Positions 1,649 through 35,120 of a stretch of 64,000 nucleotides of DNA are shown piece by piece (within the stretch, counting starts at the first letter, position 1; every line of letters starts with the position of its first letter). Source of the DNA: Crambe crambe. Lineage: Eukaryota; Porifera; Demospongiae; Poecilosclerida; Crambeidae. Position numbers and translations under genes: made by a program. The stretch lies in assembly GCA_963924555.1 (NCBI GenBank), contig OZ004585.1, forward strand, positions 4,291,488 to 4,355,487, read 5' to 3'. Under the pieces are notes generated by a model that worked only from the letters and a program-made list of their open reading frames with translations, made no database searches and was not told the origin of the DNA.

Positions 1649-4487
1649 TCATGTCTTCATAGTTGTGATGGCAGAAATCTGTGGCTTGATTTGCTGCTGC
1701 ATAAGCAGGGCATTGTGTAATGCTGTATGAGGCATAGCAATTTCTTCATATATGACTGTGCTAGGTACAGATTCTACTACAGTTTCAGACGCATTCAATT
1801 GAACCTGAGGTTTCCTTGGTCTTTCTCTAAAATAGTGTTCATAAAAATCAATAATACCATTGATTGAGTGAACTCTCTAATATAGTTGTATAGAGAGCTT
1901 ACCCTAAATCCGTGCATTGCTTACGAGCGATTAAAATTCCACCAGTTAATGAAACGGTTATTATAAGAAGAGTACCAGCTACTCCAATCACAATGCCTGT
2001 GTGTATTATTTAATGTGGACAAAATATGGTCAATAAGTTATGATTGAAACTTGGCAATTCTACCCACTTCCAGACAAGAATATCTCCACCCCCTCCACAC
2101 ACACACATGTATGCATGCACATATGCATGTGTTTATATAATGGAGAGTGCATGCAGCAAGGAAACATTTGCGCAACCATAATAGGGGTACAGAAAGCGTA
2201 CACAATGAAATGATATTATTCCATGATACTATGCTATTTAGTAATAGTCTGGTAAGTGGTCACTCACATTTTCCTGAATAATATCATGTCTTACCTATTA
2301 CAATAAAATTTTCTTGTTGAGAATCCACAGTAAGTATCACTGTTGTTCCATTTTCTTTTCGAGGATTCACCATCGAAGTTACCATTTGACCATTTTCTCC
2401 TAGTCGAAGATGGATTAATGGCATTCATGATAGTTAATTGAAAATTCTACCACTCACCTAAATTTAATTCTTGAAGATATGCAGAGAACGTAAAGGTAAT
2501 GTTAATGTTATCTCCCCTTAGTGATGAAGAGATCAGATTTTGCTCCACAATGCACTGAATTGTGTAGTTTTCCATTATAAGCTCAGCAGTACTGATCTCC
2601 AAGGTGGAGTTAATTATGAAACTATTATTATTTTCTCTCTCAATTCTATTAATAGACATCCCATTCTGTTCACAGCTATCAGGACCACAAGGTGATCCAT
2701 TAAATATCCACCTCACACTGATGTTACTTCCTTTAGCATTGCAATGAAAGGTGGCTGTGTCACCATTTGCTACTGTCTGGGATGAAGGGGAGACCATTAT
2801 TTCACTTCTCTCTAGAATGATAAGTGTATAAAAAGTTCCACTAAAGTTGTCTTTACAAACTACATAAAAATGTAGCTACAACGAATCAATTTTCAAAACA
2901 ATGGTAGCTTTGGAGCCACTTTTTTGGAACTCTCATTGTATGCTTTAATTCGGTACCAATATCTCAAAACTTGTGTAATTTTTTTGTGTGAAATTATATT
3001 TTTTTCTCAGACATACATAAATATACTTATCAACCTACATAGCACACGGACCTTCATGAGAGGTCCTGTCACTTCCCACTGACAGCTCTCAGGAAGAGAG
3101 CATCGTTGCATTCTTAACTTATACTGGAATGCCCTCTGATCGAAAGAGTCTGATATAAGTACAGAAAGGGTTCTGTTATCTTGAGAAAGCACATATTCTC
3201 TTGACTCTGTATCATTCATTAACTGCATTCGATGTGAGTCCACAGTTACTTGTTCCCATTTTATAGTATAAAGAGTAGGCAGTGGTATGGGACATGTCAG
3301 CATGTATCAAGGAATACATCAGTCAAGATAGTTTCATTAGACACACTTGGAACAGCTGCATTAAGATAAGAAAACAATAATTATTTGCTAATAATTTTTA
3401 TGCTTTAGATTTGGCTATGCTGTACCATGCTTCATGTAATGGTTATAGCATGCCTATAATAGCTAATTTTAAGTCAATACGTATGTGCACATGAGGATAA
3501 TGTGATAGCTAGTGCACTCGGTTACATAATGCACTTGCCTTTGGCTAGTGCCTCATGCACTATCACATCATCCGAGTGTGCCTCATTAAAGACACAAAGT
3601 TAGCTAGGCTTGTCATAGCTTAGTGTTTTATTGCTGGTCACATGTCTTGGGTCTAATCAAATTTCAGTTAGCTAGTGAAATGCCAAAGTTTATAAAAGAA
3701 GACATTCAGTTTTGTAAGCAATTGGGACTGAGGCTGGAAGGTCATAGTAAGTGGATCTGCCTATGTATCTTCACCACAAGTTCCTCAAGTGTGCAATAAA
3801 CATTAAAATGTATTCAGAGGATCTGTTGGTCACAATTAAGTCATGTAACTACCAATAATGTCATGTACTATGCTGACTCTTGGTACATGGTTACATAGGT
3901 ACCTATTGTAAGTGACATGCTAGCAATTGCTCTTTTAATATTATGTTACGTAGAAACTGAATCCTTTGAGATCATGCAAGATCTCTTTGGGTTCTAATTC
4001 ACTTTAATCGTGTTACTCAATCAGCTATGAATTTTCGACAGGTTATTAAAGCTACTGCTAAACTAATAGCTGTAGGCAGGCACAGTTAGTAGCTAAACTG
4101 CAACACTCCTTTACATGCACTCATTAACTACATAATTGTGTAGATATTATAGCTAGTATATTATTACTATCACTAACCATAGAACATTACAGATTCAGAG
4201 TGTTGTCCTTGTATTTCACAACGAATATTAACTTCAAAATAAGCTGCAATGTCGTATGTCAGATAGTCTTCATTAACATCTGTAGGTTGCTCCATCAATA
4301 ACACACCACTGGTATTATAAAACTTGAATCCTGCATTGGTGTCAGCCACACCACTGTCGGCAATACATTCAAGCCTTAGTACATTTGGAGCTTCCCTTGA
4401 AGGCGTGTAATAGTCCAGAGTAGGAATGCCTAGAATGACATGGATGGAGCACCAAACTAGAGTGTAGATGAACAAAGATGCCATCAT
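1649..4487 (-). pseudogene. Ig-like receptor copy A (degenerate)
   Basis: This is a damaged copy of the three-Ig transmembrane receptor that is intact at 7,911-11,040. Exons by comparison are signal+Ig1 4,178-4,487, Ig2 about 3,040-3,355, Ig3 2,458-2,815, stalk 2,295-2,399, TM 1,903-1,996 and tail from 1,826. Several lesions are visible. A 7-nt deletion in the Ig2 exon (near 3,302) causes a frameshift. The donor after Ig2 has changed from CTAG/GTAAGT to CTATGTAGGT, so either possible junction creates a stop. A second 7-nt deletion in the tail (near 1,730) leads to a stop at 1,649-1,651, keeping the YEEI motif but removing the YEDI region. The second Ig2 cysteine is tyrosine (FQYKL). The signal/Ig1 exon remains open. 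A role as an RNA or a secreted Ig1 fragment cannot be excluded. Confidence 0.75.
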
Positions 4488-4924
4488 GAGATGTTTCGCA
4501 CATCAGATAAAGAGACGTTCACAGATTATAACATTGATGAATAACACTTAGTATCTTAAATGGAACGAGAAGCGTCAGTTTTCATGATGCAATACCATGA
4601 TAGGGTACAAATAGAACTTGTATACATATTGGAGTATAGTCAATATCTGACATAATACACTGTTTTTTACACACACAAGTAACATTTTCCAAACTGAAAT
4701 TCTCTGTACAAAAAAAAAGCAACTAAATGAGTACTAATATATAGCTGGTCATAAGAGGTTGCTGTACAAAATGATGGTGGATTTCTTGATTTAGCTGCTG
4801 GTAAACTAGCACAAAGAATGCAAGAGACAAATGAGGGAGGGGCTGGAAGTGAGAGGTTTGGGAAGAATTTTACATGCTCACCAATCAGTGTATGATTGGA
4901 TGCACCTAAATCATATTATATAAA

Positions 4925-6917
4925 GGTTTATTCTAAATTAAAAAAAGTATAGGTATGGCTGTGTACGGTTCAAAAAAGTTCAGCAACAAGAGAGTGAACT
5001 TCAGTAAGTAACCCCTTACCAGTCACCAATATTACCAAGCTATGAGCTAACTATTCCTATACTCCGCTCCCATGACAGGCCATATCAGTGATGGGTAATA
5101 GTCAGGTGGCTTAGTGAAATTATGGGGACACTCTGGACAAATGTGCCAAACTTTGTACAGCTAGTCTTACTGATCCATGGAATGATTTGAAGATAGGATC
5201 CACCATAGAATTCTTTCCTATCTCAAAATGGAGCAAGAAATTGTATAGTTGCTATATGCACAATTTTTTTTATTTTCGTGGTACATAGAGATATGGCAAA
5301 AATTTTAACACCAAAAATATTTTGGAAAACTGGTTCTATTGCATTTGCAAAGTTTAGTGCAAGTCCAATTTGCTTTCTTGCAGCCACACCTGGTACCACA
5401 GCCTTTGCTACTCTTGCAATTACATTTTACAAGGCTTGGCTGGTTATTTGAAGAGTGGTGTCCATTATGTTGTGGACTCATCTCAACTCCAACCCCATGA
5501 TGCTGGACTTGGTCTGTTCTGCTGAGGTAGTTCACTGGTAGTCCGTATGCTGGGTTGGTACGTATTATAGTCCTCAATAAAATTTAATGTTGAAAAAGAG
5601 CAGCTCTTGTAGGTAGAAGATTTTGTTTGTATGATAAAATAGCTCCATTCTGGTTTCATTCACACTTTCATGGTTACTGCTTTTGTCACTACAAATCTTT
5701 TCAGGAGAGAGAAAAATGGGAAAAATAGCTTGGAAGTCCTTTCCTGATTCAACTAGAGGATTTACAAACATAATTATGCACCCCTGAATGATATGACTTA
5801 TTTCCCCTTTCCAAAAAAACCTGATGTGGTATCACAGCCTGTGAAGCTGTGGAAGACTATTAATAGTAATGCTGAAGATATCTCTTCACCCAAAATAGTG
5901 CAGACAGAATTGATGTGCCAGTAGGAGAAATTTTTTCCCCTTCCAAAGGCCACCCAAATATTAATGTTGGGGTTCAAGGAAAGTAAGTTAAAAATTTGCC
6001 TATCAGGATGACAATAATGTCAGTATCCACAGTGTGGATCAAACTACTTTGACCTTTTTGTAATGCATCTGCTGTATGAACCAAAAGTCTAGTGTCTGAC
6101 TCTTCATGGTCACATGCTTGCATTAGCTGATCAGTACCTTTTGAAAGTACTTCAGTATCAGAGGTTATATATACCTAATTACTTTTCCAGCTGCTTGAGG
6201 AATCTGGACAACAACATTATCAGCATACTGGTTAAATGTAATGATGTTAACAGTGGAAAGAAGGTGAACAAGAGCACCACCATCAAATACAATTATATTG
6301 AAAGAATCTGGAGGATTGCCAGTCATTTTGAGCCAACAGGGGCAATAAGTAATTTACCATACTCAGATATAGAAGGAGTCCAAGAATAATCCGTAGTAGC
6401 TAGCTAAATATTTTTTCCGTTGCATACTTGTTCATCACCTTTTTTGATGCAATGCTATTCATAACCAGACTAGTGCCTAGGGTTTACGTGATCTTTAGTC
6501 AGTTGTGAGGTCACATGTATAGGGCGAGGCATAATGTCTGCCACATTGTAGGTTGAAAACTAGCAAGTTGGTGCTATTTTTAAACATGTTGAGTTAAAGA
6601 TAAAGGATTATAGCTCAGTCAAGTTTGAGTAGTGTGGTATAAAAATTATAGCATTTGAATGAACCATTTCTGAAATAAGTTGCTTGATGATGATGATGAT
6701 GAACAATCAGAAGAAAATGACGATTTAGAAGTTGCTGTAAAATGATACTGCTTCGTCTTTTGCTCTTCATACTTTAGTCCTAGCACATTGAAGGTGTCCT
6801 GTCTTCAAGTTAGGAATTGCTTACAGCAGGAGAGAAGTATTCTTGAAGTTATGAAATTATTAGTCCAATGGGGCCATCCGTGCCATCCCTACTTAAAAGA
6901 GTACTATCGTACTCTAA
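4925..6917. mobile_element. Foldback element enclosing an EADTR/TGCDT gene relic (left copy)
   Basis: The left end (4,925-5,080) is one arm of the same palindrome seen complete at 48,926-49,228: TTTATTCTAAAT, a GGATGGCTGTGT box, and a GTTCAGCAACAAGAGAGTGAACTT stretch. The right end has the other arm's outer part (about 6,407-6,445), then the 'ataaccagactagtgcctag' body, and finishes with CATCCCTACTT and a decayed small hairpin (6,897-6,915). Between them lies the minus-strand gene relic. The gene-less 1.1-kb elements at 48,926-50,022 and 55,937-57,048 share both ends. The relationship, full-length element versus deletion derivative, is inferred. Confidence 0.5.
5305..6400 (-). pseudogene. EADTR/TGCDT family protein with Cys-rich C-terminus (relic, left copy)
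   Basis: Reading on the minus strand from about 6,120 downward, the conserved blocks come in the family's usual order: a HEESDTRLLVHTADA segment, TVDTDIIVIL, then GKFxxY-type and FHSFTGCDTTS blocks (about 5,800-6,000, broken here by a 1-nt loss at 5,821), and an open C-terminal 90-residue stretch (5,305-5,577). That last stretch contains KCNCKSSKGC...CGCKKANW.C...LCKC, a cysteine-rich CXC-like cluster. I recognise this block order from uncharacterised, repetitive proteins of cnidarians and other invertebrates. Acidic DTD/EADT motifs suggest a PIN/FEN-like nuclease, but that is a guess. Frame changes near 5,575, 5,821 and 5,990 make it a relic. It is nearly identical to 24,685-25,785. Confidence 0.6.
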
Positions 6918-7910
6918 CTAATCTCTGCATGCAGAACTGTGAAGTTCAATTGTAACTATCTCATCATTGAGCTTCAGAATTCTTTAGTTAGACAAGATGC
7001 ATCAAGATCTAGCTTGTTTCACATTTTATCATGTTATTATAGCTAGCATGCATGGTCTGGACTTATCAATTGGAATGCCTGATAATTATAAGTCATGCAG
7101 TATATTGCCTATAATATTAAGCACTTGAACCACAACCAACTTTTTATTCTATATAACTGGAAAGAGATTATTTATAAGCAAGCCTCATTTAATGGATACA
7201 TGGGAGAGGGAATGTTTTTGAATTGGAAGTTATGAACTCTTGCATGCAAAACAATAATAATAATACTGTAAGCTTGTATATTTTCCGAATTCATAGCAAG
7301 TGGCATATATTCCAATAGCCACTCCATTAGCAGAGCATTAATTCAACCTCTCTGAAGATGTGTCTTTAATCACTATAACATTAATTGGGTAATCTCTGCT
7401 ACAGCTTAGCCACTCAGGATCCATGCTTTGCTTGTGATTTGTGAGCAATGATCATGCCAATCAGGTCAGTCCTTCAACCTCCACGCCCACACATTCATGT
7501 GAATGAATACAAGCTTAATTATTATTCAGCTGTTGATTCAACTGATGATGATTGGGAGTATGGTAAACTAGCATGAGGAGAAGGAATGGGACAGTACAAT
7601 GTGTTGGTCTCTTTTTTTCTTCATCTTCTTCTTACCTTCATCCTTGATTATACTCTTAAACCAGCTACGTATAGGGAATGTTATTGAACTGGGACTTACA
7701 TCAATTGAAAACATTCAAATTTAAAATTGACTCTAATACGTAAAGACGGTTATTTGTACGTAAGTAGTTAACTGTTAAGTAAACAAGTCATTGTGTCAAT
7801 CTCCTGCTCTCCGCACGATGAAAATGTAATGTCATACACATAATAAAGAGCTATAGCTAGTTATTATAATAAACAAATTATCAAACAGTGAATGATATTC
7901 TCAACATTTG
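6918..7910. other. 3' flank of receptor B, no gene seen
   Basis: This sequence is shared with 26,298-27,283 and partly with 11,460-12,240 and 33,360-34,020. It contains receptor-unit flanking words but no supported exon. A short tract of TTCTTC near 7,615-7,635 is the only low-complexity feature noticed. Confidence 0.5.
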
Positions 7911-10900
7911 CTATTTCTTGGTAGTCACTCCATAAGCAGAACATTGTTGGATCTTAATATCACCCTCATGTGAAGTAGGGACATCTAAATCACAAATCTC
8001 TATGTCTTCATAATTGTGATGGCAGGAAACTGTGATTTCATTTGCTGCTGCATAAGCAGGGCATTGTGTAAAGCTGTATGAAGTAGAAGGCATAGCAATT
8101 TCTTCATATATGACAGTGCCGGGTACAGATTCTACTCCAGTTTCAGACATATTCAATTGAACCTGAGGTTTCCTTGGTCTTTCTCTAAAATAGTGTTCAT
8201 AAAAATCAATAATAACATTGATTGAGTGAACTCTCTAATATAGTTGTATAGACAGCTTACCCTAAATCCATGCATTGCTTACGAGCAATTAAAATTCCAC
8301 CAACTAAGAAAACAGTTATTATAAGAAGAGTACCAGCTACTCCAATCACAATGCCTGTATGTACATAAATACTATTTAAACCCCTAGTTTAAATTGAGTT
8401 AACATTCAAAGGATGCCTGGGCGGAGCCAGGGGCACTAGGATCGTTCACGCATGCCCAAGGGTGGTTGATTAGATCCGTAGCATTCAGACCGCTGAGCAG
8501 CAACTAGAGTTTCTAGCTACGTACGAAGCTAGCTACCTGCAGAACGCTAGCATCCTTCCCACCCACTTCTCCCACAGTTAGTTACTGGTACTACATGAGC
8601 TTGTAATTATTCATGTTTGTTATTAATCTGTACAATTCTCCACCCCTTGGGGTGTGAAATTACAAGGGGCGCAATGAAGCAGCCCCCTTCGGGAGGATGT
8701 ATCAGCCAACATACACTCCCCTACCTACTGTATGTTCGGTGCCGGGTCCACCAGGCAGCCTGCAGACGCATGCTGCCAGGGGCTAGCAGGGCCGGGTCAG
8801 GCCATAAGCTGTTGCGGGCCCCTGGTAAAGAGGGGAGGGTGGCAGGTCAGTCTCCTCCCCCAGATAGACGAGCTATGCCAGGTCAGGCATCTTTGCTCGG
8901 TAAAGGGCACATGGGGAGCTGACCCGGCACACGAATGTCAGTCTGGATGCCAGGTCAGGCATCCCAATATGTTTAGTCACTCAGGGGACCAACCTTTTCT
9001 CCATCTGCTAAGTTACGGAGAATGGCCTAACTCAAGGCCAAGTACTATCATAGGAAGGTTAATGTGGATTAAATATGGTAGCTGGTATAATTCAATAAGA
9101 CTAGTTATGATTCTCTTCCTGATAAAATTTCTTCACCCCCCTCCTCACAAACACATCATGTACGCACATAATATGCATGTGGTTATATAATGTAGAGAGC
9201 ACATTTGCTCAACCATAATAAGGGTACAGAAAAACTTATATTATACAACGAAATGACATGATACTAGCTATACTATTTAGATGATACGTGGTCTGGTAAG
9301 TAGTTACTCACTTTTTTCCTGAATAATTATGTCTTACCTATTACAATAAAATTTTCTTGTTTAGAATCCCCAATAAATATCACTGTTGTACCATTTTCTT
9401 TTTGAGGATTCACCATCGAAGTCACCATTTGACCATTTTCTCCTAGTCGAAGATGGCATTCATGATAGTTAATTGAAAATTCTACCACTCACCTGAATTT
9501 AATTCTTGAAGATATGTAGATAATGTGAAGGCAATGTTAATATTATCTCCCCTTAGTGATGAAGATGTCAGATTTTGTTCCACAATGCAGTGAATTGTGT
9601 GGTTTTCTGTTATAAGCTCACCAGTACTGATCTCCAAGGTGGAGTTAATCATGAAACTATTATTATTTACTCTCTCAGTTCTATTAATAGATATCCCATT
9701 CTGTTCACAGCTATCAGGACCACAAGGTGATCCATTAAATATCCACCTCACACTGATGTTACTTCCTCTAGCATTGCAATGAAAGATAGCTGTGTCACCA
9801 TTTGCTACTGTCTGGGATGAAGGGGAGACCATTATTTCACTTCTCTCTAGAATATAATCAGTGTATAAAAAGTTCCACTAAAGTTATACATATCAACTTA
9901 CCTAGCACACGGACCTTCATGAGAGGTCCTGTCACATCCCACTGACAGTTCTGAAGAGAGCATCGTTGCATTCTTAACTTACACTGGAATGCCCTCTGAT
10001 CAATAGAGTCTGATATAAGTACAGAAAGGGTTCTGTTATCTTGAGAGAGCACATATTCTCTTGACTCTGTATCATTCATTAACTGCATTCGATGTGAATC
10101 CACATATACTTGTTCCCATATTATAGTATAAAGAGTAGGCAGTGGTATGGGGCATGTCAGCATTGCATATGTATCAAGGAATACATCAGTCAAGATAGTT
10201 TCATTGGACACATTTGGAACAGCTGCATTAAGATAAGAATTCAGTCATGTGCATGTCAGATTTATGTTGTAGCTACCTAGCTACAGTAATCTCGTTCTTT
10301 ATTGTCATGTGTTGATACTATAGCTACGTAGTTACGTATAGTTACAGTATTATGATGATCTTACATATGTAGAAACTGAATCATTTGGAATTATGCAAGA
10401 TCTCTTTAGGTTCTAATTTACTTTAATTATGTTACTCAATCAGATCTGAATTTTAAACAGGTTATTAAAGCTACTGCTAAACTAATAGCTATAGGAAACT
10501 ACTTTTATGTTATACATGTAGCTAGCATATGTAATTACAATAGCTAAGCATTGAACATAGCTCTTTGGGATCTTATTCATGTTTGTAAATCAGCTAGCTC
10601 TATGGCATCACAATTTTAACAGGTAGCTATACTGCTAAATTATAGGCACAGTTAGTAAACTGCAACACTGAAGTCATATAGCTACGTAACTACTTATGCA
10701 TTGTAATTGTGTAGATATACTACCACTAACCATAGAATGTAGCAAATTCAGAGTGTTCTCCTTGTATTTCACAACTAATATTGACTTCAAAATCTGCTGC
10801 AATGTCGTAAGTCAGATAGTCTTCATTATCATCTGTAGGTTGTTCCATCAATAACACACCACTAGTGTTATAGAAATTGAATCTTGCATTGGTGTCAGGC

Positions 10901-11040
10901 ACACCATCGTCACCAATACATTCGAGCCTTAGTACATTTGGAGCTTCCCTTGAAGGCAAGTAATTGTCCAGAGTAGGAATGCCTTGAATGACATGGATGG
11001 ACCACCAAACTAGAGTGTAAATGAACAAAGATGCCATCAT
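7911..11040 (-). CDS. Ig-like transmembrane receptor B with ITIM-like tail (intact)
   Basis: Six exons with matching GT/AG sites join in one frame: 10,731-11,040; 9,902-10,222; 9,493-9,846; 9,338-9,442; 8,261-8,354; 7,911-8,184 (1,458 nt, 485 residues). Residues 1-20 are a hydrophobic signal peptide (MMASLFIYTLVWW...). Residues 21-103 form Ig-like domain 1 (LECIGDD ... NISCEI). Residues 104-210 form domain 2 (LTCPIP, IIWEQ, FQCKL). Residues 211-328 form domain 3 (FHCNARG, VRWIF, IHCIV). A stalk with a QEN motif follows, then a TM helix near 359-388 and a positive stop (ARKQC). The tail has Tyr421 in VIYEEI, which fits the ITIM pattern [SIVL]xYxx[IVL] and is also the classic Src-SH2 pYEEI, and Tyr453 in NYEDI. 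The predicted role is a cell-surface recognition receptor that signals through SH2 proteins. Ligand and function are unknown. Most introns are phase 1; the TM/tail intron is phase 2. Confidence 0.85.
8393..9060. repeat. GC-rich repeat insertion in the stalk-TM intron of receptor B
   Basis: Copy A has only about 300 bp in this intron, whereas B and E carry an extra GC-rich block with repeated GCCAGGTCAGGCAT words, CCGGGTC and CAGGGGCTAGCAGGGCCGGG. The 8,457-8,565 part (TTAGATCCGTAGCATTCAGACC...) also occurs at 27,836-27,930 and 43,339-43,411, so it is a dispersed repeat. Open frames across it are composition effects. The uninterrupted CCGG at 8,742-8,745 is the empty target site of the element inserted at 28,114. 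Confidence 0.6.
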
Positions 11041-12244: not shown

Positions 12245-12484
12245 AACATTTGCTATTTCAATTTTTCTTGGTAGTCACTTCATAAGCAGAACATTGTTGG
12301 ATCTTAATATCACCCTCATGTGAAGTAGGGACACAAATCTCCATATCTTCATAGTTGTGATGGCAGGAATCTGTGATTTCAAGCAGGGCATTGTGTAAAG
12401 CTGTACGTGGTAGGAGTAGCGATTTCTTCATATACGTAGGCCTATGACAGTGCTAGGTACAGATTCTACTCCGGTTTCAGAACT
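12245..12484 (-). pseudogene. Relic of receptor tail exon (left)
   Basis: On the minus strand this matches the tail exons at 7,911-8,184 and 27,284-27,557, from the SETGVESVP coding start to the 3' end. Internal deletions remove the AAANE region and the DLDV codons, and an insertion interrupts the VIYEEI coding. No TM exon lies upstream, so the piece is a leftover of an extra receptor copy. A partner relic lies at 34,028-34,290. Confidence 0.6.
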
Positions 12485-13087: not shown

Positions 13088-13704
13088 TTAATTAATAAGA
13101 CTGGTGTAGCAGTCTGGTTGGCTATACACTGTTATGTTGATGGTAACACAAAATGGCACCCGAGTGGATTTCACAGCGGTTTTTTTCACAGCAGTTTTGG
13201 TGGATTTTTTATTAACTGCAGAATAAATATGGGAAGGATCCCATGTTTCAGAACCCTGAGTTACCTTTTGCACTGAAACATCACATAGTGTAAGATCTAT
13301 TTCTTCGTAACTGTTTGCAGCATTTGTGAATGTTTTCTTCATCACTGTAGCAGAGTGGGAGCCATCCCAATAATCAGATGCGTATGATTTCTTCTTTCGC
13401 TCAACTTGAGGAAATTTATCAATACATTGTGCATGTTTGAATGATGTTACTGCACTATAATATGGATCATTGTCAGTAATCTCAAAATCTTGGTTAGATA
13501 AATCTTCACGAGTTTCTCTGTTCTCCAATTCTGTTGCAGGAAGGTTTTCAGTTACATTCAGTGTTGATGCTATGCCTACTGCAGTCTTGTTCTTGACGTG
13601 AGTTTTAATGAGATATAGTCTACATAATGTTATTGAACTGATGATACTAATAATTGTCAGTAATAAAAAGGCTCCAATTCCAACTCCAACTCCAATTTGT
13701 ATTA
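13088..13704 (-). CDS. Alternative TM plus cytoplasmic tail exon (C) with three YxxV/I motifs
   Basis: An acceptor (CCAATACTTTTAG) at 13,705 opens a 617-nt exon ending in a stop at 13,088. It encodes a hydrophobic helix (IQIGVGVGIGAFLLLTIIS...), a basic stop-transfer (RLYLIKTHVKNK) and a tail of about 160 residues with DPYYSAV, NSYEEI and HIYSAV: three tyrosine sites, the middle one a pYEEI-type SH2 ligand. The tail is unrelated in sequence to that of receptors B and E. Entry phase is 1, the same as the stalk exon of receptor D (21,677-21,739), which lacks its own TM exon. D plus C therefore probably form one gene across an ~8 kb intron filled by the 15-21 kb foldback pair. The extreme 3' end recurs at 34,837-34,917. 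Confidence 0.65.
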
Positions 13705-13801
13705 CTAAAAGTATTGGAAGAATAATAATTATAGTTATCATGTAAATAGGTACAAATACTTAACTCTGTTACTCTCTGAATTGGCTAAAACCATAATATT
13801 A

Positions 13802-14745: not shown

Positions 14746-14825
14746 ATGGACCAATCAGATTCCTTGATTGTGACTAGCTATAGTCTAACATCAGCTAGAG
14801 CTAGCTAGCTAGAGACAGCTGAGTA

Positions 14826-15050: not shown

Positions 15051-15083
15051 TAAGAAGAATAATAATAAGAAGAATAATAATAA

Positions 15084-21676: not shown

Positions 21677-23864
21677 CAATTATAGTTCTATTTTCTTGTT
21701 GAGGGTCATCAGTCAATATCACTGTCGTACCATTTTCTTCTAAATTCAATAATAGTAGCATTCATGATAGCTATTCGAGGTTTTTAAAAATTCTGCCACT
21801 CACCAAAATTTATTACTTGAAGATATGCAGACAAAGTGATGGTAATGTTAATATTATCACTTCTTAGTGATGAAGAGGTCAGATTTTGTTCCTCAATGCA
21901 CTGAATTGTGTAGTTTTCCATTATAAGCTCACCAGTACTGATCTCCAAGGTGGAATTAATCAAGAAACTATTATTATTTACTCTCTCAGTTCTAACCCAT
22001 TTTGTTCACAGCTATCAGGACCACAAGGTGATCCATTAAATATCCACCTCACACTGATGTTACTTCCTCTAGCATTGCAATGAAAGATAGCTGTGTCACC
22101 ATTCACTACTGTCTGGGATGAAGGGGAGACCATTATTTCACTTCTCTCTAGAATATAATCACGGTACAAAAAGTTCCACTAAAATTGTCCATACAAACTA
22201 CACAAATGTAGCTACAATGAATCTAATTTTCAAAACAATAGTAGCTTTGGAACCACTTTTTTAGAACTTTCATTGTATGCTTCGATTTGGTATCAATATC
22301 TCAAAACTTGTGTTGCAAGAAATTATATTTTTTTCTCAGTCATACATTAATACTATACCTATTACACTTATCAACTTACCTAGCACACGGACCTTCATGA
22401 GAGGTCCTGTCACTTCCCACTGACAGTTCTCAGGAAGAGAGCATCGTTGCATTCTTAACTTACTCTGGAATGCCCTCTGATCAATAGAGTCTGATATAAG
22501 TACAGAAAGGGTTCTGTTATCTTGACAGAGCACATATTCTCTTGACTCTGTACCATTCATTAACTCTATTCGAATTAAATCCACAATTTGTTCCCATATT
22601 ATAGTATAAAGAGTAGGCAGTGGTATGGGGCATGTCAGCATTGCATATGTATCAAGGAATACATCAGTCAAGATAGTTTCACTAGACACATTTGGAACAG
22701 CTGCATTAAGATAAGAAAACAATAATTATTTGCTCAGTCAATGTGCATGTTTCTAATTATGCTTTGGATTTAGCTATGTTGTACCATGTTTCATGTAATG
22801 GTTATAACATACCTATAGGTAATTTTAAGTCAATATGTACACATGAGGACAATGTGATATCTAGTGCACTCGGTTACATAATGCACTCACCTTTGGCTTG
22901 TGCATTATGTAACCTCATGCACTATCACATCATCCGAATGTGCCTCATTAAAAGACGTAAAGCATAGGCTTGTCATAAGTGTTTTATTGCTGGTCACATG
23001 TCTTGGGTCTAATCAAATTTCAGTTAACTGGTGAAATGCCAAAGTTTATAAAAGATGACTTTCAGTTCTGTAAGCACTTGGGACTGAGGCTGGAAGGCCA
23101 TAGTCCAAGTGGATCTGCCTATGTACAGTACATATCTTTACCACAAGTTCCTCAAGTGTGCAATAAAAATTAATAATGTGTAGATAAAGTACACTCTTCA
23201 GAGGATTTGTTGGTTACAATTAAGTCATGTAACTAGCAATAATGTCATGTACTATACTGACTCTTGGTACATGGTACCATAGGTACCTATTGTAAGTGGC
23301 ATGCTAGCAATTGCTCTTTTAATATTATGTTACGTCGAAACTGAATCCTTTGAGATTATGCAAGAGCTCTTAGGGTTCTAATTCATGTTTCTCAATCAGC
23401 TATGAATTTTAAACAGGTTATTAAAGCTACTGCAAAACTAATAGCTGTGCAGGCACAGTTAGTACCTACGTACGTAAACTGCAACGCTCTTTTACATGCA
23501 CTCATTAATAGCTAACTATATAATTATTGTGTAGATAATATTACTATAACTAACCATAGAACATGACAGATTCAGAGTGTTCTCCTTGTATTTCACAATG
23601 AATATTAACTTCAAAATCTGCTGCAATGTCGTATGTCAGATCATCTTCATTGAAATCTGTAGGTTGCTCCATCAATAACACACCACTAGCATTATAAAAC
23701 TTGAATCTTGCTTTGGTGTCAGCCACACCACTGTCGGCAATACATTCGCGCCTTAGTACATTTGGAACTTCCCTTGAAGGCAAGTAATGGTCCAGAGTAG
23801 GAATGCCTAGAATGACATGGATGGAGCACCAAACTAGAGTGTAGATGAACAAAGATGCCATCAT
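21677..23864 (-). pseudogene. Ig-like receptor copy D (Ig3 exon frameshifted, own TM missing)
   Basis: Exons are signal+Ig1 23,555-23,864 (open), Ig2 22,380-22,700 (open), Ig3 21,804-22,147 and a shortened stalk 21,677-21,739. The Ig3 exon is 344 nt instead of 354. A net 10-nt loss near 21,995 removes the ISINRTE region and shifts the frame to an early stop. The second Ig2 cysteine is serine (FQSKL). All junctions are phase 1, so skipping Ig3 keeps the frame: Ig1-Ig2-stalk joined to exon C (13,088-13,704) gives 436 residues. It may therefore still be expressed as a two-Ig receptor with a different tail, or be a pseudogene. The Ig1 exon differs from that of copy A at about 12 positions. Confidence 0.65.
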
Positions 23865-24299: not shown

Positions 24300-26297
24300 T
24301 TTTATTCTAAATAAAAAAAAGTATAGGTATGGTTGTGTACGGTTCAAAAAGTTCAGCAACAAGAGAGTGAACTTCAGTAAGTAACCCCTTACCCATCACC
24401 AATATTAATTACGAGCTAACTATTCCTATACTCCGCTCCCATGACAGGCCATATCTTGGTAATATCAGTGATGGGTAATAGTCAGGTGGCTTAGTGAAAT
24501 TATGGGGGCACTCTGGACAAATGTGCCAAACTTTGTACAGCTAGTCTTACTGATCCATGGAATGATTTGAAGATAGGATCCACCATAGAATTCTTTCCTA
24601 TCTCAAAATGGAGCAAGAAATTGTATAGTTGCTATATGCACAATTTTTTTTATTTTCGTGGTACATAGAGATATGGCAAAATTTTTAACACCAAAAATAT
24701 TTTGGAAAACTGGTTCTATTGCATTTGCAAAGTTCAGTGCAAGTCCAATTTGCTTTCTTGCAGCCACACCTGGTACCACAGCCTTTGCTACTCTTGCAAT
24801 TACATTTTACAAGGCTTGGCTGGTTATTTGAAGAGTGGTGTCCATTATGTTGTGGACTCATCTCAACTCCAACTCCATGATGCTGGATTTGGTCTGTTCT
24901 GCTGAGGTAGTTCACTGGTAGTTCGTATGCTGGGTTGGTACGTATTATAGTCCTCAATAAAATTTAATGTTAAAAAAGAGCAGCTCTTGTAGGTAGAAGA
25001 TTTTGTTTCTATGATAAAATAGCTCCATTCTGGTTTCGCTCACACTTTCAAGGCTACTGCTTTTGTCACTACAAATCTTTTCAGGAGAGAGAAAAATGGG
25101 AAGAATAGCTAAGGAAGCTTGGAAGTCCTTTCCTGATTCAACTAGAGCATTTACAAACATAATTATGCACCCCTGAATGATATGACTTATTTCCCCTTTC
25201 CAAAAAAACCTGGATGTGGTATCACAGCCTGTGAAGCTGTGGAAGACTATTAATAGTAATGCTGAAGATATCTCTTCACCCAAAATAGTGCAGACAGAAT
25301 TGATGTGCCAGTAGGAGAAATTTTTTCCCCTTCCAAAGGCCACCCAAATATTAATGTTGGGGTTCAAGGTAAGTAAGTAAAAAATTTGCCTATCAGGATG
25401 ACAATAATGTCAGTATCCACAGTGTGGATCAAACTACTTTGACCTTTTTGTAATGCATCTGCTGTATGAACCAAAAGTCTAGTGTCTGACTCTTCATGGT
25501 CACATGCTTGCATTAGCTGATCAGTACCTTTTGAAAGTACTTCAGTATCAGAGGTTATATATACCTAATTACTTTTCCAGCTGCTTGAGGAATCTAGACA
25601 ACAACATTATCAGCATGCTGGTTAAATGTAATGATGTTAACAGTGGAAAGAAGGTGAACAAGAGCACCACCATCAAACACAATTATATTGGAGGATTGCC
25701 AGTCATTTTGAGCCAACAGGGGAAATAAGTAATTTATCATACTCAGATATAGAAGGAGTCCAAGAATAATCTGTAGTAGCTAGCTAAATATTTTTTCCAT
25801 TGCGTACTTGTTCATCACCTTTTTTGATGCAATGCTATTCATAACCAGACTAGTGCCTAGGGTTTACGTGATCTTTAGTCAGTTGTGAGGTCACATGTAT
25901 AGGGCGAGGCATAATGTCTGCCACATTGTAGGTTGAAAACTAGCAAGTTGGTACTATTTTTAAACATGTTGAGTTAAAGGTAAAGGATTATAGCTCAGTC
26001 AAGTTTGAGTAGTGTGGTATAAAAATTATAGCATTTGAATGAACCATTTCTGAAATAAGTTGCTTGATGATGATGATGATGAACAATCAGAAGAAAATGG
26101 CGATTTAGAAGTTGCTGTAAAATGATACTGCTTTGTCTTTTGCTCTTCATACTTTAGTCCTAGCACATTGAAGGTGTCCTGTCTTCAAGTTAGGAATTGC
26201 TTACAGCAGGAGGGAAGTATTCTTGAAGTTATGAAATTATTAGTCCAATGGGGCCATCCGTGCCATCCCTACTTAAAAGAGTACTATCGTACTCTAA
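24300..26297. mobile_element. Foldback element enclosing an EADTR/TGCDT gene relic (right copy)
   Basis: Duplicate of 4,925-6,917, with the same palindrome arm (24,307-24,480), gene relic and decayed small hairpin terminus (26,277-26,295). Because it came with the segmental duplication it is not an independent insertion. Confidence 0.5.
24685..25785 (-). pseudogene. EADTR/TGCDT family protein with Cys-rich C-terminus (relic, right copy)
   Basis: This copy is better preserved than the left one. The minus strand has one open run from 25,367 to 24,954 holding INIWVAFGRGKNFSYWH, a SSALLLIVFHSF block, TGCDTTS and FFWKGEI. The Cys-rich C-terminal stretch follows at 24,957-24,685 in another frame, with KCNCKSSKGC and LCKCN. 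Upstream, about 25,380-25,510 carries HEESDTRLL and TVDTDIIVIL. The order matches uncharacterised repetitive proteins known in invertebrates. At least two frame changes remain, so this is a decayed gene unless unrecognised introns explain them. Confidence 0.6.
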
Positions 26298-27283
26298 CTA
26301 ATCTCTGCATGCAGAACTGTGAAGTACGATTGTAACTATCTCATCATTGAGCTTCAGAATTCTTTAGTTAGACAAGATGCATCAAGATCTAGCTTGTTTC
26401 ACATTTTATCATGTTATTATAGCTAGCATGCATGGTCTGGACTTATCAATTGGAATGCCTGATAATTATAAGTCATGCAGTAGCTATATTGCCTATAATA
26501 TTAAGCACTTGAACCATAACCAACTTTTTATTCTATATAACTGGAAAGAGATTATTTATAAGCAAGCCTCACTTAATGGATACATGGGAGAGGGAATGTT
26601 TTTGAATTGGAAGTTATGAACTCTTGCATGCAAAACAATAATAATAATACTGTAAGCTTGTATATTTTCTGAATTCATAGCAAGTGGCATATATTCCAAT
26701 AGCCACTCCATTAGCAGAGCATTAATTCAACCTCTCTGAAGATGTGTCTTTAATCACTATAACATTAATTGAGTAATCTCTGCTACAGCTTAGCCACTCA
26801 GGATCCATGCTTTGCTTGTGATTTGTGAGCAATGATCATGCCAATCAGGTCAGTCCTTCAACCTCCACACCCACACATTCATGTGAATGAGTACAAGCTT
26901 AATTATTATTCAGCTGTTGATTCAACTGATGATGATTGGGAGTATGGTAAACTAGCATGAGGAGAAGGAATGGGACAGTACAATGTGTTGGTCTCTTTTT
27001 TTCTTCATCTTCTTCTTATTTTCATCCTTGATTATACTCTTAAACCAGCTATAGGGAATGTTATTGAACCGGGACTTACATCAATTGAAAACATTCAAAT
27101 TTAAAATTGACTCTATAAAGACGGTTATTTGTAAGTATAGTTAACTGTTAAGTAAACAAGTCATTGTGTCAATCTCCTGCTCTCCGCACGATAAAAATGT
27201 AATGTCATACACATAATAAAGAGCTATAGCTAGTTATTATAATAAACAAATTATCAAACAGTGAATGATATTCTCAACATTTG

Positions 27284-30200
27284 CTATTTCTTGGTAGTCA
27301 CTCCATAAGCAGAACATTGTTGGATCTTAATATCACCCTCATGTGAAGTAGGGACATCTAAATCACAAATCTCTATGTCTTCATAATTGTGATGGCAGGA
27401 AACTGTGATTTCATTTGCTGCTGCATAAGCAGGGCATTGTGTAAAGCTGTATGAAGTAGAAGGCATAGCAATTTCTTCATATATGACAGTGCCAGGTACA
27501 GATTCTACTCCAGTTTCAGACATATTCAATTGAACCTGAGGTTTCCTTGGTCTTTCTCTAAAATAGTGTTCATAAAAATCAATAATACCATTGATTGAGT
27601 GAACTTTCTAATATAGTTGTATAGACAGCTTACCCTAAATCCATGCATTGCTTACGAGCAATTAAAATTCCACCAGCTAATGAAACAGTTATTATAAGAA
27701 GAGTACCAGCTACTCCAATCACAATGCCTGTATGTACATAAATACTATTTAAACCCCTAGTTTAAATTGAGTTAATATTCAAAGGATGCCTGGGCGGAGC
27801 CAGGGGCACTAGGATCGTTCACGCATGCCCAAGGGTGGTTGATTAGATCCGTAGCATTCAGACCGCTGAGCAGCAACTAGAGTTTCTAGCTACGTACGAA
27901 GCTAGCTACCTGCAGAACGCTAGCATCCTTCCCACCCACCTCTCCCACAGTTAGTTACTGGTACTACATGAGCTTGTAATTATTCATGTTTGTTATTAAT
28001 CTGTACTCCACCCCTTGGGGTGTGAAATTACAAGGGGCGCAATGAGGCAGCCCCCTTCGGGAGGATGTATCAGCCAACATACACTCCCCTACCTACTGTA
28101 TGTTCGGTGCCGGTGTCAAGTAAAAATGGGGACCCCCACAAAATGGGGACCCCCATCCCCATTTTTAAGTAATTTTGGGGACCCCCATGCCCAAATTTGG
28201 GGATCCTTCAAGAATTTTAGGGACCCCCGTATTTTTAAGGATCCCCATGCCTAAATTAATGGGGATCCCTCAAGAATTTTGGGGACTCCCTGATATGACA
28301 AGATATCGATATTAATGATTTTTTTATCTGTAGCTATAGCTACTTAGCACAATACCAATCCTTTTTTTTTTTGTTCTTCCAGAAATCTGGTGGTACATGG
28401 GCACACCGATTAGGAAGGCTATCATATACGTTGACAGTCCTCAGGAGAACTATCACCAGCTAGCTATAGTTATCCAGTGAGAGCCATACACATTCAGGCA
28501 GTCCCTTCTCTGAATGTCAAATCCACTGCACTGCAAGTGAAGTGGGCTGTAATCCTTTCATATTTGGTGAGAAATTTAGTACCAGCTGCATCAGTAAGCC
28601 ACTTGCCCTGTAGTAAGGCAGTTTTGTCCTCATCAAATCCTTCTTCCAATATTGAACAGGCTTATAAACAAGATCATTCTTTCTACAATAAAATTATTCA
28701 TGAGTTTATGTTGACATGTTCCAACCTGTGGAAAACTTTAATACAAATGAATTGCTTAGCCACGATAGCTATTATAGCTACATAGGTTGAAATAATAACC
28801 AGGCCAATAATATTTTTTACAGACTAGATCATTGATTCGGTGCGGCTATCATCATGAATAGTTGCAGCATCTTCAACCTGCCATAAGCTTGGATTAAGCT
28901 CGAGAATTTTCCTTACCTACTCAAATACAGTCATATAATCGCCTATAGACATAAATGCCCAGAACATGGCTATAAACTCTACCCTCATAGCTATAGGGCT
29001 ATGGAAATGTTAGTTGTGCACCAATTCATGGGTTGTTAATGCACCAGGGTCTCATGACTTTATTGAAGGGCTCCCTCCCTCCCTCCCTCCCTCCCCCCTC
29101 TCTCTCTCCATGGATGATCAATATAAGCCTAAGGGCTCGTAGCTAGCTACATATATTATGAAACAAGGCTGGCCGCATGCAACTGTTGTTCAATATTATT
29201 GCTTTATTATAGTAGACTAGAGTTTACAACTATTATGCCCCCAGTTAGCTCACCAGTACAGATCAGCCTCTTCAGCATGAAAAACTTGCACTTTTTTTCT
29301 TAGTTTGTCACCCTTTTCAAAGCTGGCATACGCATGCGCATGGGGTCCCTAATTTTACAGGGGGGACCCTGATTTTACGATAATTTTGGGGTCGGGGGTC
29401 CCCAAATTTATGGGGTCCCTAAATTTACGTGACACCGGGTCCACCAGGCAGCCCGCAGACGCATGCTGCCAGGGGCTAGCAGGGCCGGGTCAGGCCATAA
29501 GCTGTTGCGGGCCCCTGGTAAAGAGGGGAGGGTGGCAGGTCAGTCTCCTCCCCCAGATAGACGAGCTATGCCAGGTCAGGCATCTTTGCTCGGTAAAGGG
29601 CACATGGGGAGCTGACCCGGCACATGAATGTCAGTCTGGATGCCAGGTCAGGCATCCCAATATGTTTAGTCACTCAGGGGAGTAGCCCCTTGTATATACC
29701 AACCTTTTCTCCATCTGCTAAGTTACGGAGAATGGCCTCACTCAAGGCCAAGTACTATCATGGGAAGGTTAATGTGGATTAAATATGGTAGCTGGTATAA
29801 TTCAATAAGACTAGTTATGATTGAAACTTGACCCTCTTCCTGATAAAATTTCTTCACCCCCCTCCTCACAAACACATCATGTATGCACATAATATGCATG
29901 TGGTTATATAATGTAGAGAGCAGCAAGAACACAATTTTGCTCAACCATAATAAGGGTACAGAAAAGCTTATATTATACAACGAAATGACATGATACTAGC
30001 TATACTATTTAGATGATACGTGGTCTAGTAAGTAGTTACTCACTTTTTTCCTGAATAATTATGTCTTACCTATTACAATAAAATTTTCTTGTTTAGAATC
30101 CCCAATAAATATCACTGTTGTACCATTTTCTTTTTGAAGATTCACCATCGAAGTCACCATTTGACCATTTTCTCCTAGTCGAAGATGGCATTCATGATAG

Positions 30201-32907
30201 TTAATTGAAAATTCTACCACTCACCTGAATTTAATTCTTGAAGATATGTAGATAATGTGAAGGCAATGTTAATATTGTCTCCCCTTAGTGATGAAGAGGT
30301 CAGATTTTGTTCCACAATGCAGTGAATTGTGTGGTTTTCTGTTATAAGCTCACCAGTACTGATCTCCAAGGTGGAGTTAATCATGAAACTATTATTATTT
30401 ACTTTCTCAGTTCTATTAATAGATATCCCATTCTGTTCACAGCTATCAGGACCACAAGGTGATCCATTAAATATCCACCTCACACTGATGTTACTTCCTC
30501 TAGCATTGCAATGAAAGATAGCTGTGTCACCATTTGCTACTGTCTGGGATGAAGGGGAGACTATTATTTCACTTCTCTCTAGAATGATAAGTGTATGAAA
30601 AGTTCCACTAAAGTTGTCCTTACAAACTACATAAAAAATGTAGCTACAACGAATCAATTTTCAAAACAATGGTAGCTTTGGAACCACTTTTTTTAAACTT
30701 TCATTGTATGCTTCAATTCAGTACCAATAATTATTTCAAAACTTGTGTAATTTTTTATGTGAAATCAGTCATACATAAATACCTATTATACTTATCAACC
30801 TACGTACCTAGCACATGAACCTTCATGAGAGGTCCTGTTACTTCCCACTGACAGTTCTCAGGACGAGAGCATCGTTGCATTCTTAACTTACACTGGAATG
30901 TCCTCTGATCAATAGAGTCTGATATAAGTACAGAAAGGGTTCTGTTATCTTGAGAGAGCACATATTCTCTTGACTCTGTATCATTTATTAACTGCATTCG
31001 AAATGGAACCACAATTTGTTCCCATATTAAAGTATAAAGAGTAGGCAGTGGTATGGGGCATGTCAGCATTGCATATGTATCAAGGAATACATCAGTCAAG
31101 ATAGTTTCATTAGACACATTTGGAACAGCTGCATTAAGATAAGAATATTAGTAAAACAATAATTATTTGCTCAGTTATGTGCATGTGTCTAATTTATACT
31201 TTAGATCTAGCTATATTATACCTTGCTTCATGTAATAGCCTTTAAGTCAATATGCACACACAAGGATGATTTGATAGTGGATTCAGTTACATAATGCATT
31301 ATCGCATCATCTGAGTGTGCCTCGTGATACAAGGCTTGTCATAAGTGTTTTATTACTGGTCACATGACTTGGGTCTAATCAGATTTCAGTTGGTCCTTAT
31401 ATGATGAACACTGTTGCTCCTCACCATACTCTTTCTTTTCCTAAGTTTTGCCTATTTGAAAACTCAATACAACTATAGTGAAATCCCAAAGTCAATAAAA
31501 GAAGACATTCAGTTCCTGTCTTACTGTAAGCACTTGGGTAGTCCTAGTGGATCTTCCACCAGTATTCCTCAAAATGTGCAATAAACGTTTAGTGCTGGTC
31601 ACATGACTTGTGACCAATCAGATCCTCTGAAAAGTGTGCATAAAGCACACTTTAATGTGCACTAAGTATTTAGTGCACACTTGAGGAACTGTGCTGAAGG
31701 TACATAGGAGCATAGCGGAAGATCCACTAGGACTAGTTATGACCTTCCAACTTCAATTTGATTGGTCACAAGTCATGTGATCAGCACTAAAATGTTTAGA
31801 TCACTCTTTTCTAGCTCCATGTGTTTTAATGCATGGTGCACTTGAATGATGCTATATATAATGCTCTCTCGCCTTCGGCTCGTGCATTACATTCACCTCG
31901 AGCATTAAAGCATCATTCTTGTGCAGGTGCGAACTAAATATTAATTATTGCACCTAAAAGTGTGCTTTAAGAGATTAAAAGTACACTTTTCTGATTGGTC
32001 ACAATTAAGTCATGTGACCAGCAATAATGTCATGTATGATGATTCTTGGTACATAGTTACATACGTAGGTACCTATGGTAAGTGACATGCTAGAAATTGT
32101 ATGGTGACTTTTTAAACTTACTCTCTTGCTCTTTTAATATTATATGTTACAGTATTATGATGTCATTACATAGAAACTGAATCATGTGGGATTATGCAAG
32201 ATCTCTTTAGGTTCTAATTCACGTTAATCATGTTACCCAATTAGCTATTTGGAATTTGAAACAGGTTATTAAAGCTATTGCTAAACTAATAGCTATGGGG
32301 ACAGTTAGTAAACTGTGATGCTCCTTTACAGGCACTAACAACTTTTTATTATATTATTTCAAAAGGGAAACATGTAGCTAGCATAATTACAATAGCTAAC
32401 CAGTGAACATAGATCTTTGGGTTTTAATTCATGCTTTGTAAATCAGCTAGCTCTGTGGCATCATGCACAATTTTATACTGCTAAACTATAGGCACAGTTA
32501 GTAACTAAACTGCAACACTCCTTTACATGCACTCATCAATAGCAAACTAAATAATTGTGTAGATATTATAGCTATATAGCATATTACTACAACTAACCAT
32601 AGAACATAACAGATTCAGAGTGTTCTCCTTGTATTTCACAACGAATATTAACTTCAAAATCTGCTGCAATGTCGTATGTCAGATAGTTTTCATTGACATC
32701 TGTAGGTTGCTCCATCAATAACTCATCACTAGTATTATAAAACTTGAATCTTGCTTTGGTGTCAGCCACACCACTGTCAGTAATACATTCGAGCCTTAGT
32801 ACATTTGGAGCTTCCCTTGATGGCAAGTAATAGTCCAGAGTAGGAATGCCTAGAATGACATAGATGGAGTACCAAACTAGAGTGTAGATGAACAAAGATG
32901 CCATCAT
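27284..32907 (-). CDS. Ig-like transmembrane receptor E with ITIM-like tail (intact)
   Basis: Six exons: 32,598-32,907; 30,808-31,128; 30,225-30,578; 30,070-30,174; 27,634-27,727; 27,284-27,557. Their lengths equal those of receptor B exactly and they join in frame (485 residues). The domains are the same: signal peptide, three Ig-like domains with paired cysteines, stalk, TM helix, and a tail with VIYEEI and NYEDI. Against B, I count by eye about 17 changes in the 103 residues of signal+Ig1, 2 in Ig3, and none in the last 81 tail residues. The stalk-TM intron carries a 1.32-kb transposon, and intron 1 is longer than in B. It is predicted to be a surface recognition receptor whose tail is read by SH2-domain proteins. 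The ligand is unknown. Confidence 0.85.
28114..29434. mobile_element. 1.32-kb TIR transposon inserted in receptor E intron
   Basis: It begins TGTCAAGTAAAAATGGGGAC and ends GGGGTCCCTAAATTTACGTG followed by ACA, an imperfect terminal inverted repeat of about 24 bp. It is flanked on both sides by CCGG (28,110-28,113 and 29,435-29,438), while receptor B retains the single CCGG at 8,742-8,745: a 4-bp target duplication with a preserved empty site. Both ends carry reiterated GGGGACCCCCAT-like units with AAATTT spacers. The largest frame inside (28,477-28,785) matches nothing I recognise, and no transposase is visible, so the element is probably non-autonomous. A (CTCC)n tract lies at 29,069-29,097. 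Confidence 0.8.
29435..29760. repeat. GC-rich repeat, continuation after the transposon
   Basis: This is the counterpart of 8,742-9,060 in receptor B, with the same GCCAGGTCAGGCAT repeats and CAGGGGCTAGCAGGGCCGGG. Its open frame is not considered coding because it lies inside an intron and has no domain. Confidence 0.55.
31140..32590. other. Enlarged intron 1 of receptor E
   Basis: Roughly 1 kb longer than the same intron in B. It contains interleaved inverted repeats: GTCCTAGTGGATCTTCC (about 31,541) with GGAAGATCCACTAGGAC (about 31,718), and GGTCACATGACTTGTGACCAATC (about 31,600) with its complement near 31,760. No exon was found. Confidence 0.5.
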
Positions 32908-34027: not shown

Positions 34028-34290
34028 TATTCTCAACATTTGCTATTTCAATTTTTCTTGGTAGTCGACCACTCCATAAGCAGAACATTATTGAATCTTA
34101 ATATCACCCTCATGTGAAGTAGGGACATCTAGGTCACAAATCTCTATGTCTTCATAGTTGTGATGGCAGGAATCTGTGATTTCATTTGCTGCTGCATATA
34201 AGCAGGGCATTGTGTAAAGCTGTATATGGTAGAAGAATTAACGATTTCTTTATGACAGTGCTAAGTACAGATTCTACTCCAGTTTCAGAG
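34028..34290 (-). pseudogene. Relic of receptor tail exon (right)
   Basis: Counterpart of 12,245-12,484. It keeps the SETGVESV start, part of the YEEI region and the CSAYGV end, with several indels (for example an extra TA in the AAANE region and loss of ATATATG before the tyrosine motif). It has no TM exon next to it and ends in the same GTTTCAG/AGCAGACGTGAC junction. Confidence 0.55.
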
Positions 34291-34836
34291 CAGACGTGAC
34301 TGTACTTTTCCCCCTTAATTAGACAAGTCTTTGATTGGAAACTTAGGGAATTCTATGAATCCTGATTACCCTTTTGTATTATGTGGTAGGCGCATTCTTT
34401 CAAATGTTGGTACTTATGATCTGGTGTGTAGGCTCCTGCAAATTGTAGCAGCTAAAAAATTTGCCTAAAAATTTATTTTCAGATCTATTCATACATAGCA
34501 AGTAGGAAGAAACACAACAACTTATCAGCAGAGTACACTTGGGAAAAGAAGTTATTATGTAGTACACTTGGGAAAAGAAATTTATTTTGCTAAAATTAAT
34601 AAATTCCTTGGGGAAAGGTCATTCATTGAAACAGTGAACTGATCTTAGTAGCTAATACCCTTTGTGTTTGACACCAGAGTAACATTTCCGGTGTCTAAGG
34701 CCAAGTGAATCAGTAGGGATGTACATAATAATTTGTACTGCACTGCATCTGGTCAATTATAGCTTATCGAATATAGCTATGCATAGCTTTGCAGCTCTAC
34801 TCTGTTCAGACAGACAACCTAACATAGCTAATGAAT

Positions 34837-35120
34837 CATGCTTTAATTAATAAGACTGGTGTAGCAGTCTGGTTGGCTATACACCGTTATGTTGATGGTA
34901 ACACAAAATGGCACCATGCATGCTTAATAATTACATAGTCTGTGAATATAGCTAACTACGTCACTTCCCACTGACAGTTCTCAGGAAGAGAGCATCGTTG
35001 CTTTCTTAACTTACACTGGAATGCCCTCTGATCAATAGAGTCTGATATAAGTACAGAGTGTTCTGTTATCTTGAGAGAGCACATATTCTCTTGACTCTGT
35101 ATCATTCATTAACTGTATTT
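34837..35120 (-). pseudogene. Fragment F: 3' end of exon C plus partial Ig2 exon
   Basis: 34,837-34,917 matches the last ~80 bp of exon C (13,076-13,157). About 45 bp further on, 34,960-35,120 matches the 3' two-thirds of the Ig2 exon (TCACTTCCCACTGACAGTTC ... ATCATTCATTAACTG) with a small internal deletion. Thus the right block too has C-type and Ig sequences side by side in D-C order, which supports D and C belonging to one gene before an internal deletion. Confidence 0.6.

Follow-up and report, generated by a model that had tools for sequence, protein, structure and literature searches.

Probable cell-surface recognition receptors with interchangeable tyrosine-motif tails form a large multigene family in the sponge Crambe crambe

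The window analysed here, a 64,000-nucleotide stretch of the genome of the poecilosclerid demosponge Crambe crambe (C8:4291488-4355487; 143.14 Mb in 119 contigs were searched), carries on its minus strand, between approximately positions 1563 and 35121, four copies (A-D) of a receptor-like gene together with remnants, all in a single orientation. These genes probably encode single-pass receptors for recognition at the cell surface, members of a large multigene family with interchangeable tyrosine-motif tails. Each is modelled as six exons encoding, in order, three ectodomain modules (D1, D2 and D3), a short stalk, a transmembrane (TM) segment and a tail. Copies B and D are intact and copies A and C damaged, while copy E is a remnant. 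In copy A, D2 and the tail are each broken across two frames; in copy C, D3 is broken in the same way and the tail is shortened. The 90-residue tails of B and D are identical and their D3 exons 98% identical, while their D1 exons are just 83% identical. The original prediction, that at least four copies share one layout and one orientation, is largely confirmed by the two intact copies, the two damaged copies and the remnants, the exception being copy C, whose tail is of a second type, T2, described below.

The predicted six-exon layout also stands, with conserved splice dinucleotides. Among the copies examined, the D1 donor is GT in 27 of 27, the D2 acceptor AG in 24 of 24 and its donor GT in 23 of 24, the D3 acceptor AG in 23 of 23 and its donor GT in 22 of 23, and the TM acceptor AG in 14 of 14. 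The stalk exon between D3 and the TM exon is seen, flanked by AG and GT, in most of 23 aligned copies, and the introns of the ectodomain exons are, on the boundaries as read, of phase 1. The D2 copy without a GT donor (region L020, 7798-8478) has D2 and D3 fused in one open, intron-free frame. The features of the window are collected in Table 1.

Table 1. Receptor exons, remnants and duplicated block, with coordinates relative to the window.
Feature	Position	Strand	Basis or comparison
Copy D exon 1, signal peptide and D1, intact	32599..32904	-	GT donor, fold model
Copy D exon 2, D2, predicted I/V-set Ig, intact	30809..31129	-	AF2 model and fold match
Copy D exon 3, D3, Ig, intact	30226..30579	-	
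Copy D exon 4, short stalk	30070..30174	-	ends from frame and splice signals
Copy D exon 5, TM segment	27636..27728	-	
Copy D exon 6, tail T1, VIYEEI and NYEDI	27287..27556	-	
Copy B exon 1, D1, intact	10732..11037	-	
Copy B exon 2, D2, intact	9903..10223	-	
Copy B exon 3, D3, intact	9494..9847	-	98% identical to copy D
Copy B exon 4, stalk	9338..9442	-	ends from frame and splice signals
Copy B exon 5, TM segment	8263..8355	-	
Copy B exon 6, tail T1	7914..8183	-	protein identical to copy D's
Copy A exon 1, D1, open	4179..4484	-	
Copy A exon 2, D2, two frames, damaged	3040..3356	-	
Copy A exon 3, D3, open	2459..2812	-	
Copy A exon 4, stalk	2295..2399	-	ends from frame and splice signals
Copy A exon 5, TM segment	1905..1997	-	
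Copy A exon 6, tail T1 with VIYEEI, two frames, damaged	1563..1825	-	
Copy C exon 1, D1, open	23556..23861	-	
Copy C exon 2, D2, open	22381..22701	-	
Copy C exon 3, D3, two frames, damaged	21808..22148	-	
Copy C T2 TM and long-tail exon, truncated	13091..13759	-	open 223 aa vs ~320 aa in intact paralogues
T1 tail remnant, downstream of copy C T2 exon	12264..12481	-	
Copy E D2 remnant	34959..35121	-	
Copy E T1 tail remnant, internal stop	34070..34254	-	
Duplicated block, 6.3 kb	2438..8748	.	93.5% identical to 21784-28117

The window is a small portion of a multi-megabase cluster. D3 DNA matches 40 places, all on C8, at 78-100% identity (40 of 82 candidates scored), a result that excludes chance. 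Six-frame searches of the genome yielded at least 101 D1, 105 D2 and 89 D3 matches; the chaining of these into loci used all D1 and D2 rows and 80 of the 89 D3 rows, and the counts are lower bounds. Near-full-length open D1 exons number at least 77, of which at least 56 are followed by an open D2 and then D3 on the same strand ahead of the next D1, 46 of these 56 loci lying on C8 between 3.92 and 6.13 Mb. The duplicating receptor family originally predicted is thus seen both within the window and genome-wide. Close paralogues are roughly 80-98% identical, and 19 of the 27 D1-bearing genes in the regions fetched for closer comparison have intact D1, D2 and D3. Elsewhere on C8, one arrangement, in which a broken T2 tail accompanies D1 fragments, is found both at 4234253-4236677 and at 4284382-4287177, some 50 kb apart, which suggests a large segmental duplication.

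Three immunoglobulin (Ig) domains had been proposed for the ectodomain, and domain search or structure prediction agrees for two of them. D3 passes the Pfam cut-offs for I-set and C2-set_2, falling slightly under that for Ig_3. The AlphaFold2 (AF2) model of D2 has a predicted local distance difference test (pLDDT) score of 87; Ig chains rank first among its fold matches, the best being the adhesion proteins Sidekick, contactin and Dscam. The D1 model is a beta-sandwich with two cysteines placed on strands B and F, for which assignment as an Ig V-set is not established because macroglobulin MG1, GPVI and cytokine-receptor domains align about equally well, leaving its fold class tied. It is through D2 and D3 that the family, as modelled, belongs to the immunoglobulin superfamily (IgSF).

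Two tails are found on these ectodomains. T1, a separate exon, contains the motifs VIYEEI, CPAY, NYE[DE][IV] and SAYG. T2 is a single long exon with its own membrane helix, about 320 amino acids in intact copies, and contains NYS[AT]V, NYEEIDL, HIYSAV, YAVVDK, PPRS, MYSN and YSVI. The same ectodomain family is joined to either: in the fetched regions nine of the 19 intact genes carry T1 and ten T2. The identical tails of copies B and D do contain VIYEEI, as predicted, a sequence resembling the immunoreceptor tyrosine-based inhibitory motif (ITIM); the label denotes a consensus match, the pattern [SIVL]xYxx[IVL] fitting non-ITIM sites as well. Recurrence of the motifs was assessed in 27 T1 tails (8 core tails plus 19 gathered by similarity to them) and 17 T2 rows. 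In T1, a YEEI-type site is present in 25 of 27, CPAY in 24, YE[EDG][IVM] in 25 and AYG in 22. The corresponding T2 figures, out of 17, are 16 for HIYS-type, 15 for NYEEIDL, 14 for YAVVDK-type, 13 for PPR, 12 for NYS[AT]V and 10 each for MYSN-type and YSVI-type sites. The strict [SIVL]xYxx[IVL] pattern occurs at least once in 20/27 T1 and 15/17 T2 rows, a few of these occurrences falling in read-through flanks. In T1, where columns average 59% conservation, three tyrosine columns reach 93%; in T2, with a mean of 67%, only two tyrosine columns (88% and 94%) are clearly higher.

Tyrosine motifs recur in related tails that are about 40% identical, and T1-like tails are found elsewhere on C6, where they follow another ectodomain, and on C9, C14, C18 and C66. 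On C6, at 7739201-7914499 and at 5.01-5.14 Mb (L051), the T1-like tails conserve VIYEEI and HDYEEVKL; the ectodomain exons there appear Ig-like and FN3-like by eye, with no Pfam match. A third, short tail type is present on D1-D2-D3 family members at C18:1799001-1806000 (L052), and in one gene at C8:4868501-4878000 (L053) a T1 tail exon comes after a T2-like exon, which may reflect alternative splicing or an ancestral arrangement. The outer edge of the T2 helix is occupied by Arg in 7 of 12 copies, Gln in four and Pro in one (e.g. C8:4288505, 4262178 and 4186581). Adaptor-coupled receptors such as GPVI have an arginine at a comparable membrane-edge position. The helices of T1 and of the C18 tail type have, as read, no basic residue.

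Ectodomain exons and tails have separate histories. Among the 19 intact genes, each of the three domain alignments (D1, D2 and D3) rejects the trees of the other two (approximately unbiased (AU) test, p ≤ 3.6e-4), and Mantel tests correlate only D1 with D2 (r 0.37, p 0.001), giving r 0.13 (p 0.13) for D1 with D3 and r 0.10 (p 0.24) for D2 with D3. Tail type shows no association with D1 (p 0.94) or D2 (p 0.58); for example, the D1 exons of genes 4291197 (T2) and 4175763 (T1) are 2.3% apart, yet the two genes have unlike tails. The incompatibility of the D1, D2, D3 and tail-type histories points to recombination that reassorts both binding parts and outputs. A local instance is the 6.3-kb duplicated block of the window, which starts and stops within genes and so brings together a tail and an ectodomain from different genes. 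Variation in D2 is concentrated on the predicted GFCC' face of the domain.

The reading of these genes as recognition receptors draws on features computed here: the architecture, copy number and splice sites, the two tails on interchangeable ectodomains, the incompatible exon histories, the recurring motifs and the D2 GFCC' variation. Several observations weigh against it. Eight of the 27 D1-bearing genes lack, as read, an intact D1-D2-D3 set. The additional T1 tails were gathered by similarity to T1, so the sample favours carriers of the motifs, and 11 of 94 T1 columns equal the best tyrosines, indicating that whole blocks are kept rather than tyrosines alone; in T2, most tyrosines are conserved no better than many other columns. 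With D3, tail type has a weak association (p = 0.027). The GFCC' face was picked after the variable columns were known, and its ratio of nonsynonymous to synonymous substitution (dN/dS) of 1.12 (0.58-2.38) gives no significant positive selection. Ratios for whole exons are below 1 throughout, at 0.49 for D1, 0.60 for D3 and 0.89 (0.52-1.61) for D2.

As recognition receptors, the proteins would contact a ligand on another cell or on a microbe through the variable residues of D2, together with the D1 loops, and a Src-type kinase would phosphorylate the tail. T1, through VIYEEI and YE[DE][IV], could then recruit a tandem-SH2 protein such as an SHP-2-type phosphatase, while T2 might assemble a more extensive SH2/SH3 complex. 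New pairings of ectodomain and tail would continually arise through unequal crossing-over and conversion, and in this way, we propose, one specificity could become wired to different outputs. Candidate partners are encoded in the genome, which contains 135 SH2 matches. C18 bears two SH2 exons and a phosphatase domain, all on the same strand. Human PTPN11 (SHP-2) is the top match of the second SH2 exon (E 1.3e-57); for one phosphatase exon, receptor phosphatases come first (6.4e-43) and PTPN11 next (1.8e-34). By these similarities the genome encodes an SHP-2-type phosphatase, a candidate partner of the tails. On C5, dense SH2 exons adjoin Kelch-repeat exons at 1417826-1522148 (L094 being C5:1471500-1478500), the SH2 exons often paired about 430 bp apart and bearing FLIRES/FLVRQS motifs; this cluster is possibly an expanded family of tandem-SH2/Kelch adaptors. 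Tyrosine-phosphatase matches number 183, most among the matches listed lying on C12, C9 and C13, which suggests an expanded phosphatase family.

What such receptors would recognise may be approached through several alternatives. A genuine possibility, though short of an even chance, is that the family is a germline-diversified innate one, organised like KIR/LILR and tuned to microbes or symbionts over kin. Its birth-death expansion, the shuffling of exons between genes, the damaged copies and the alternative signalling tails all fit innate clusters; however, no microbial ligand or known microbe-binding domain turned up, in analyses that included no search aimed at them.

It is also possible, if on balance rather unlikely, that the cluster is an allorecognition locus setting fusion or rejection between sponge individuals, as do Alr in Hydractinia and fuhc in Botryllus. 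Clustered IgSF receptors with tyrosine-motif tails are among the candidates in both of those invertebrate models, according to the available portions of two papers (PMC12065747, PMC11067881). Bearing on this is a D1 profile search of a large protein set, which returned 43 proteins. A 2.91-Mb contig carrying the window's own exons accounts for 14 of these; nine equal compared D1 exons and five have no match, because the compared exons cover part of the family. A further 18 D1 proteins, from three contigs (1.04, 0.96 and 0.33 Mb), all differ from every compared D1 exon, and 13 of them are core-type with 86-97% identity to the nearest compared copy. Four of these 13 were searched against the whole genome and had no exact match there, reaching at most 92% (P0003) and 94% (P0017), both from the 1.04-Mb contig, 96% (P0015, 0.96-Mb contig) and 97% (P0004, 0.33-Mb contig). 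Relatives of T2 lie on the same contigs as the extra D1 sequences.

The likeliest reading of these contigs, judged from sequence, is that they represent the alternate haplotype, and the extra D1 sequences accordingly suggest haplotype polymorphism, with the qualifications that the compared exons include 26 of the 27 core D1 copies that are closest and that protein clustering at 90% hides close alleles; an alternate haplotype, GCA_963924525.1, has been published with the Crambe crambe assembly odCraCram1.1, as stated in the accessible part of the genome note (PMC12166358). Divergent Alr1 alleles in Hydractinia are likewise reported on separate scaffolds in the text available of PMC11067881. Against an allorecognition role, the alternate haplotype is itself inferred and the extra contigs could come from another individual or species, while the five unmatched proteins of the contig that carries the window's D1 exons show the same lack of a match in a family compared in part. 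In addition, a term search of the available text of an Amphimedon grafting transcriptome paper did not find the word immunoglobulin (PMC5450542). Relatives in other organisms are suggested by six D1 matches on short contigs, at 36-63% identity to the query.

Less favoured, and unlikely, is an ordinary adhesive function, in which duplicated Ig adhesion proteins, their tails anchoring signalling scaffolds, serve tissue cohesion with no discriminating role. The adhesion proteins heading the D2 fold matches and the dN/dS values, mostly below 1, are consistent with this, but constitutive adhesion genes would not usually show at least 56 loci, recent shuffling of exons and variation focused on a single sheet. 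A neutral amplification driven by transposons, in which most copies have no function, is very improbable since, for all the remnants, frameshifted copies and repeats inside and between copies, 19/27 D1-bearing genes of the fetched regions keep D1-D2-D3 open, splice sites are nearly always intact and tail motifs persist at about 40% tail identity.

The recognition-receptor reading may be extended, in a form that we regard as speculative and quite doubtful, to a sponge histocompatibility complex. Haplotype-divergent receptors would read the identity of a neighbour through the D2 face, and recombining T1 and T2 tails would couple a single specificity to SH2 outputs that oppose each other, namely the SHP-2-type phosphatase and the tandem-SH2/Kelch family; T2 would perhaps also pair with an adaptor via its membrane-edge arginine. 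If true, this would extend recognition by Ig domains plus tyrosine motifs to sponges.

In organisation, the cluster may be viewed as the sponge counterpart, by analogy, to the Alr, fuhc and vertebrate leukocyte receptor complex (LRC) clusters, with membership in none of these claimed. Hydractinia Alr, as described in the available portions of the sources, shares with it clustered single-pass IgSF receptors, many pseudogenes, Ig membership recognised by structure prediction and tail motifs of the ITIM type or that of the immunoreceptor tyrosine-based activation motif (ITAM) (PMC12065747, PMC11067881). The Crambe genes differ in that close paralogues are roughly 80-98% identical, in shuffling exons and in having two interchangeable tails, and their polymorphism is putative; the likeness to Alr is drawn from organisation. 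The fuhc receptors of Botryllus (FcoR), with ITIM and hemITAM tails, similarly form a clustered IgSF family with varied signalling motifs (PMC12065747, available text), whereas in Crambe the alternative tails sit on one ectodomain family. Compared with the LRC receptors (KIR, LILR, GPVI), T2 brings a long tail of its own rather than depending on an adaptor, the D1 fold ties with unrelated folds and no sequence homology was found. Unlike Sidekick and Dscam, the Crambe receptors have three domains only, form a clustered multigene family and carry tyrosine-motif tails. The usual candidates for sponge allorecognition are the aggregation factors, with domains of Calx-beta and von Willebrand type. 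Both they and the Crambe genes are candidate self-recognition genes, but a Pfam search of the D1, D2, D3, T1 and T2 exons found no aggregation-factor domains, only Ig families reaching the cut-off.

A 2025 review, in its available text, regards candidate allorecognition proteins as not conserved across sponges, cnidarians and ascidians, while noting a convergence on ITIM/ITAM signalling among candidate receptors of animals ranging from cnidarians to mammals (PMC12065747). That convergence would be carried to another deep animal branch by a sponge cluster like the present one. Among the papers listed by topical searches of the open-licence literature, there was no report of such a sponge Ig-receptor cluster. 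The locus is mapped, and an alternate haplotype of the species has been published.

Two further features of the window lie outside the receptor exons. Between D3 of copy C and its T2 tail, at 15083-21042, is a large, transposon-like inverted repeat with arms of about 1.3 kb that are 95% identical and palindromes nested inside. Neighbouring minus-strand frames at 36387-37175, 38339-39127 and 47027-47734 encode NHL repeats and ankyrin repeats.

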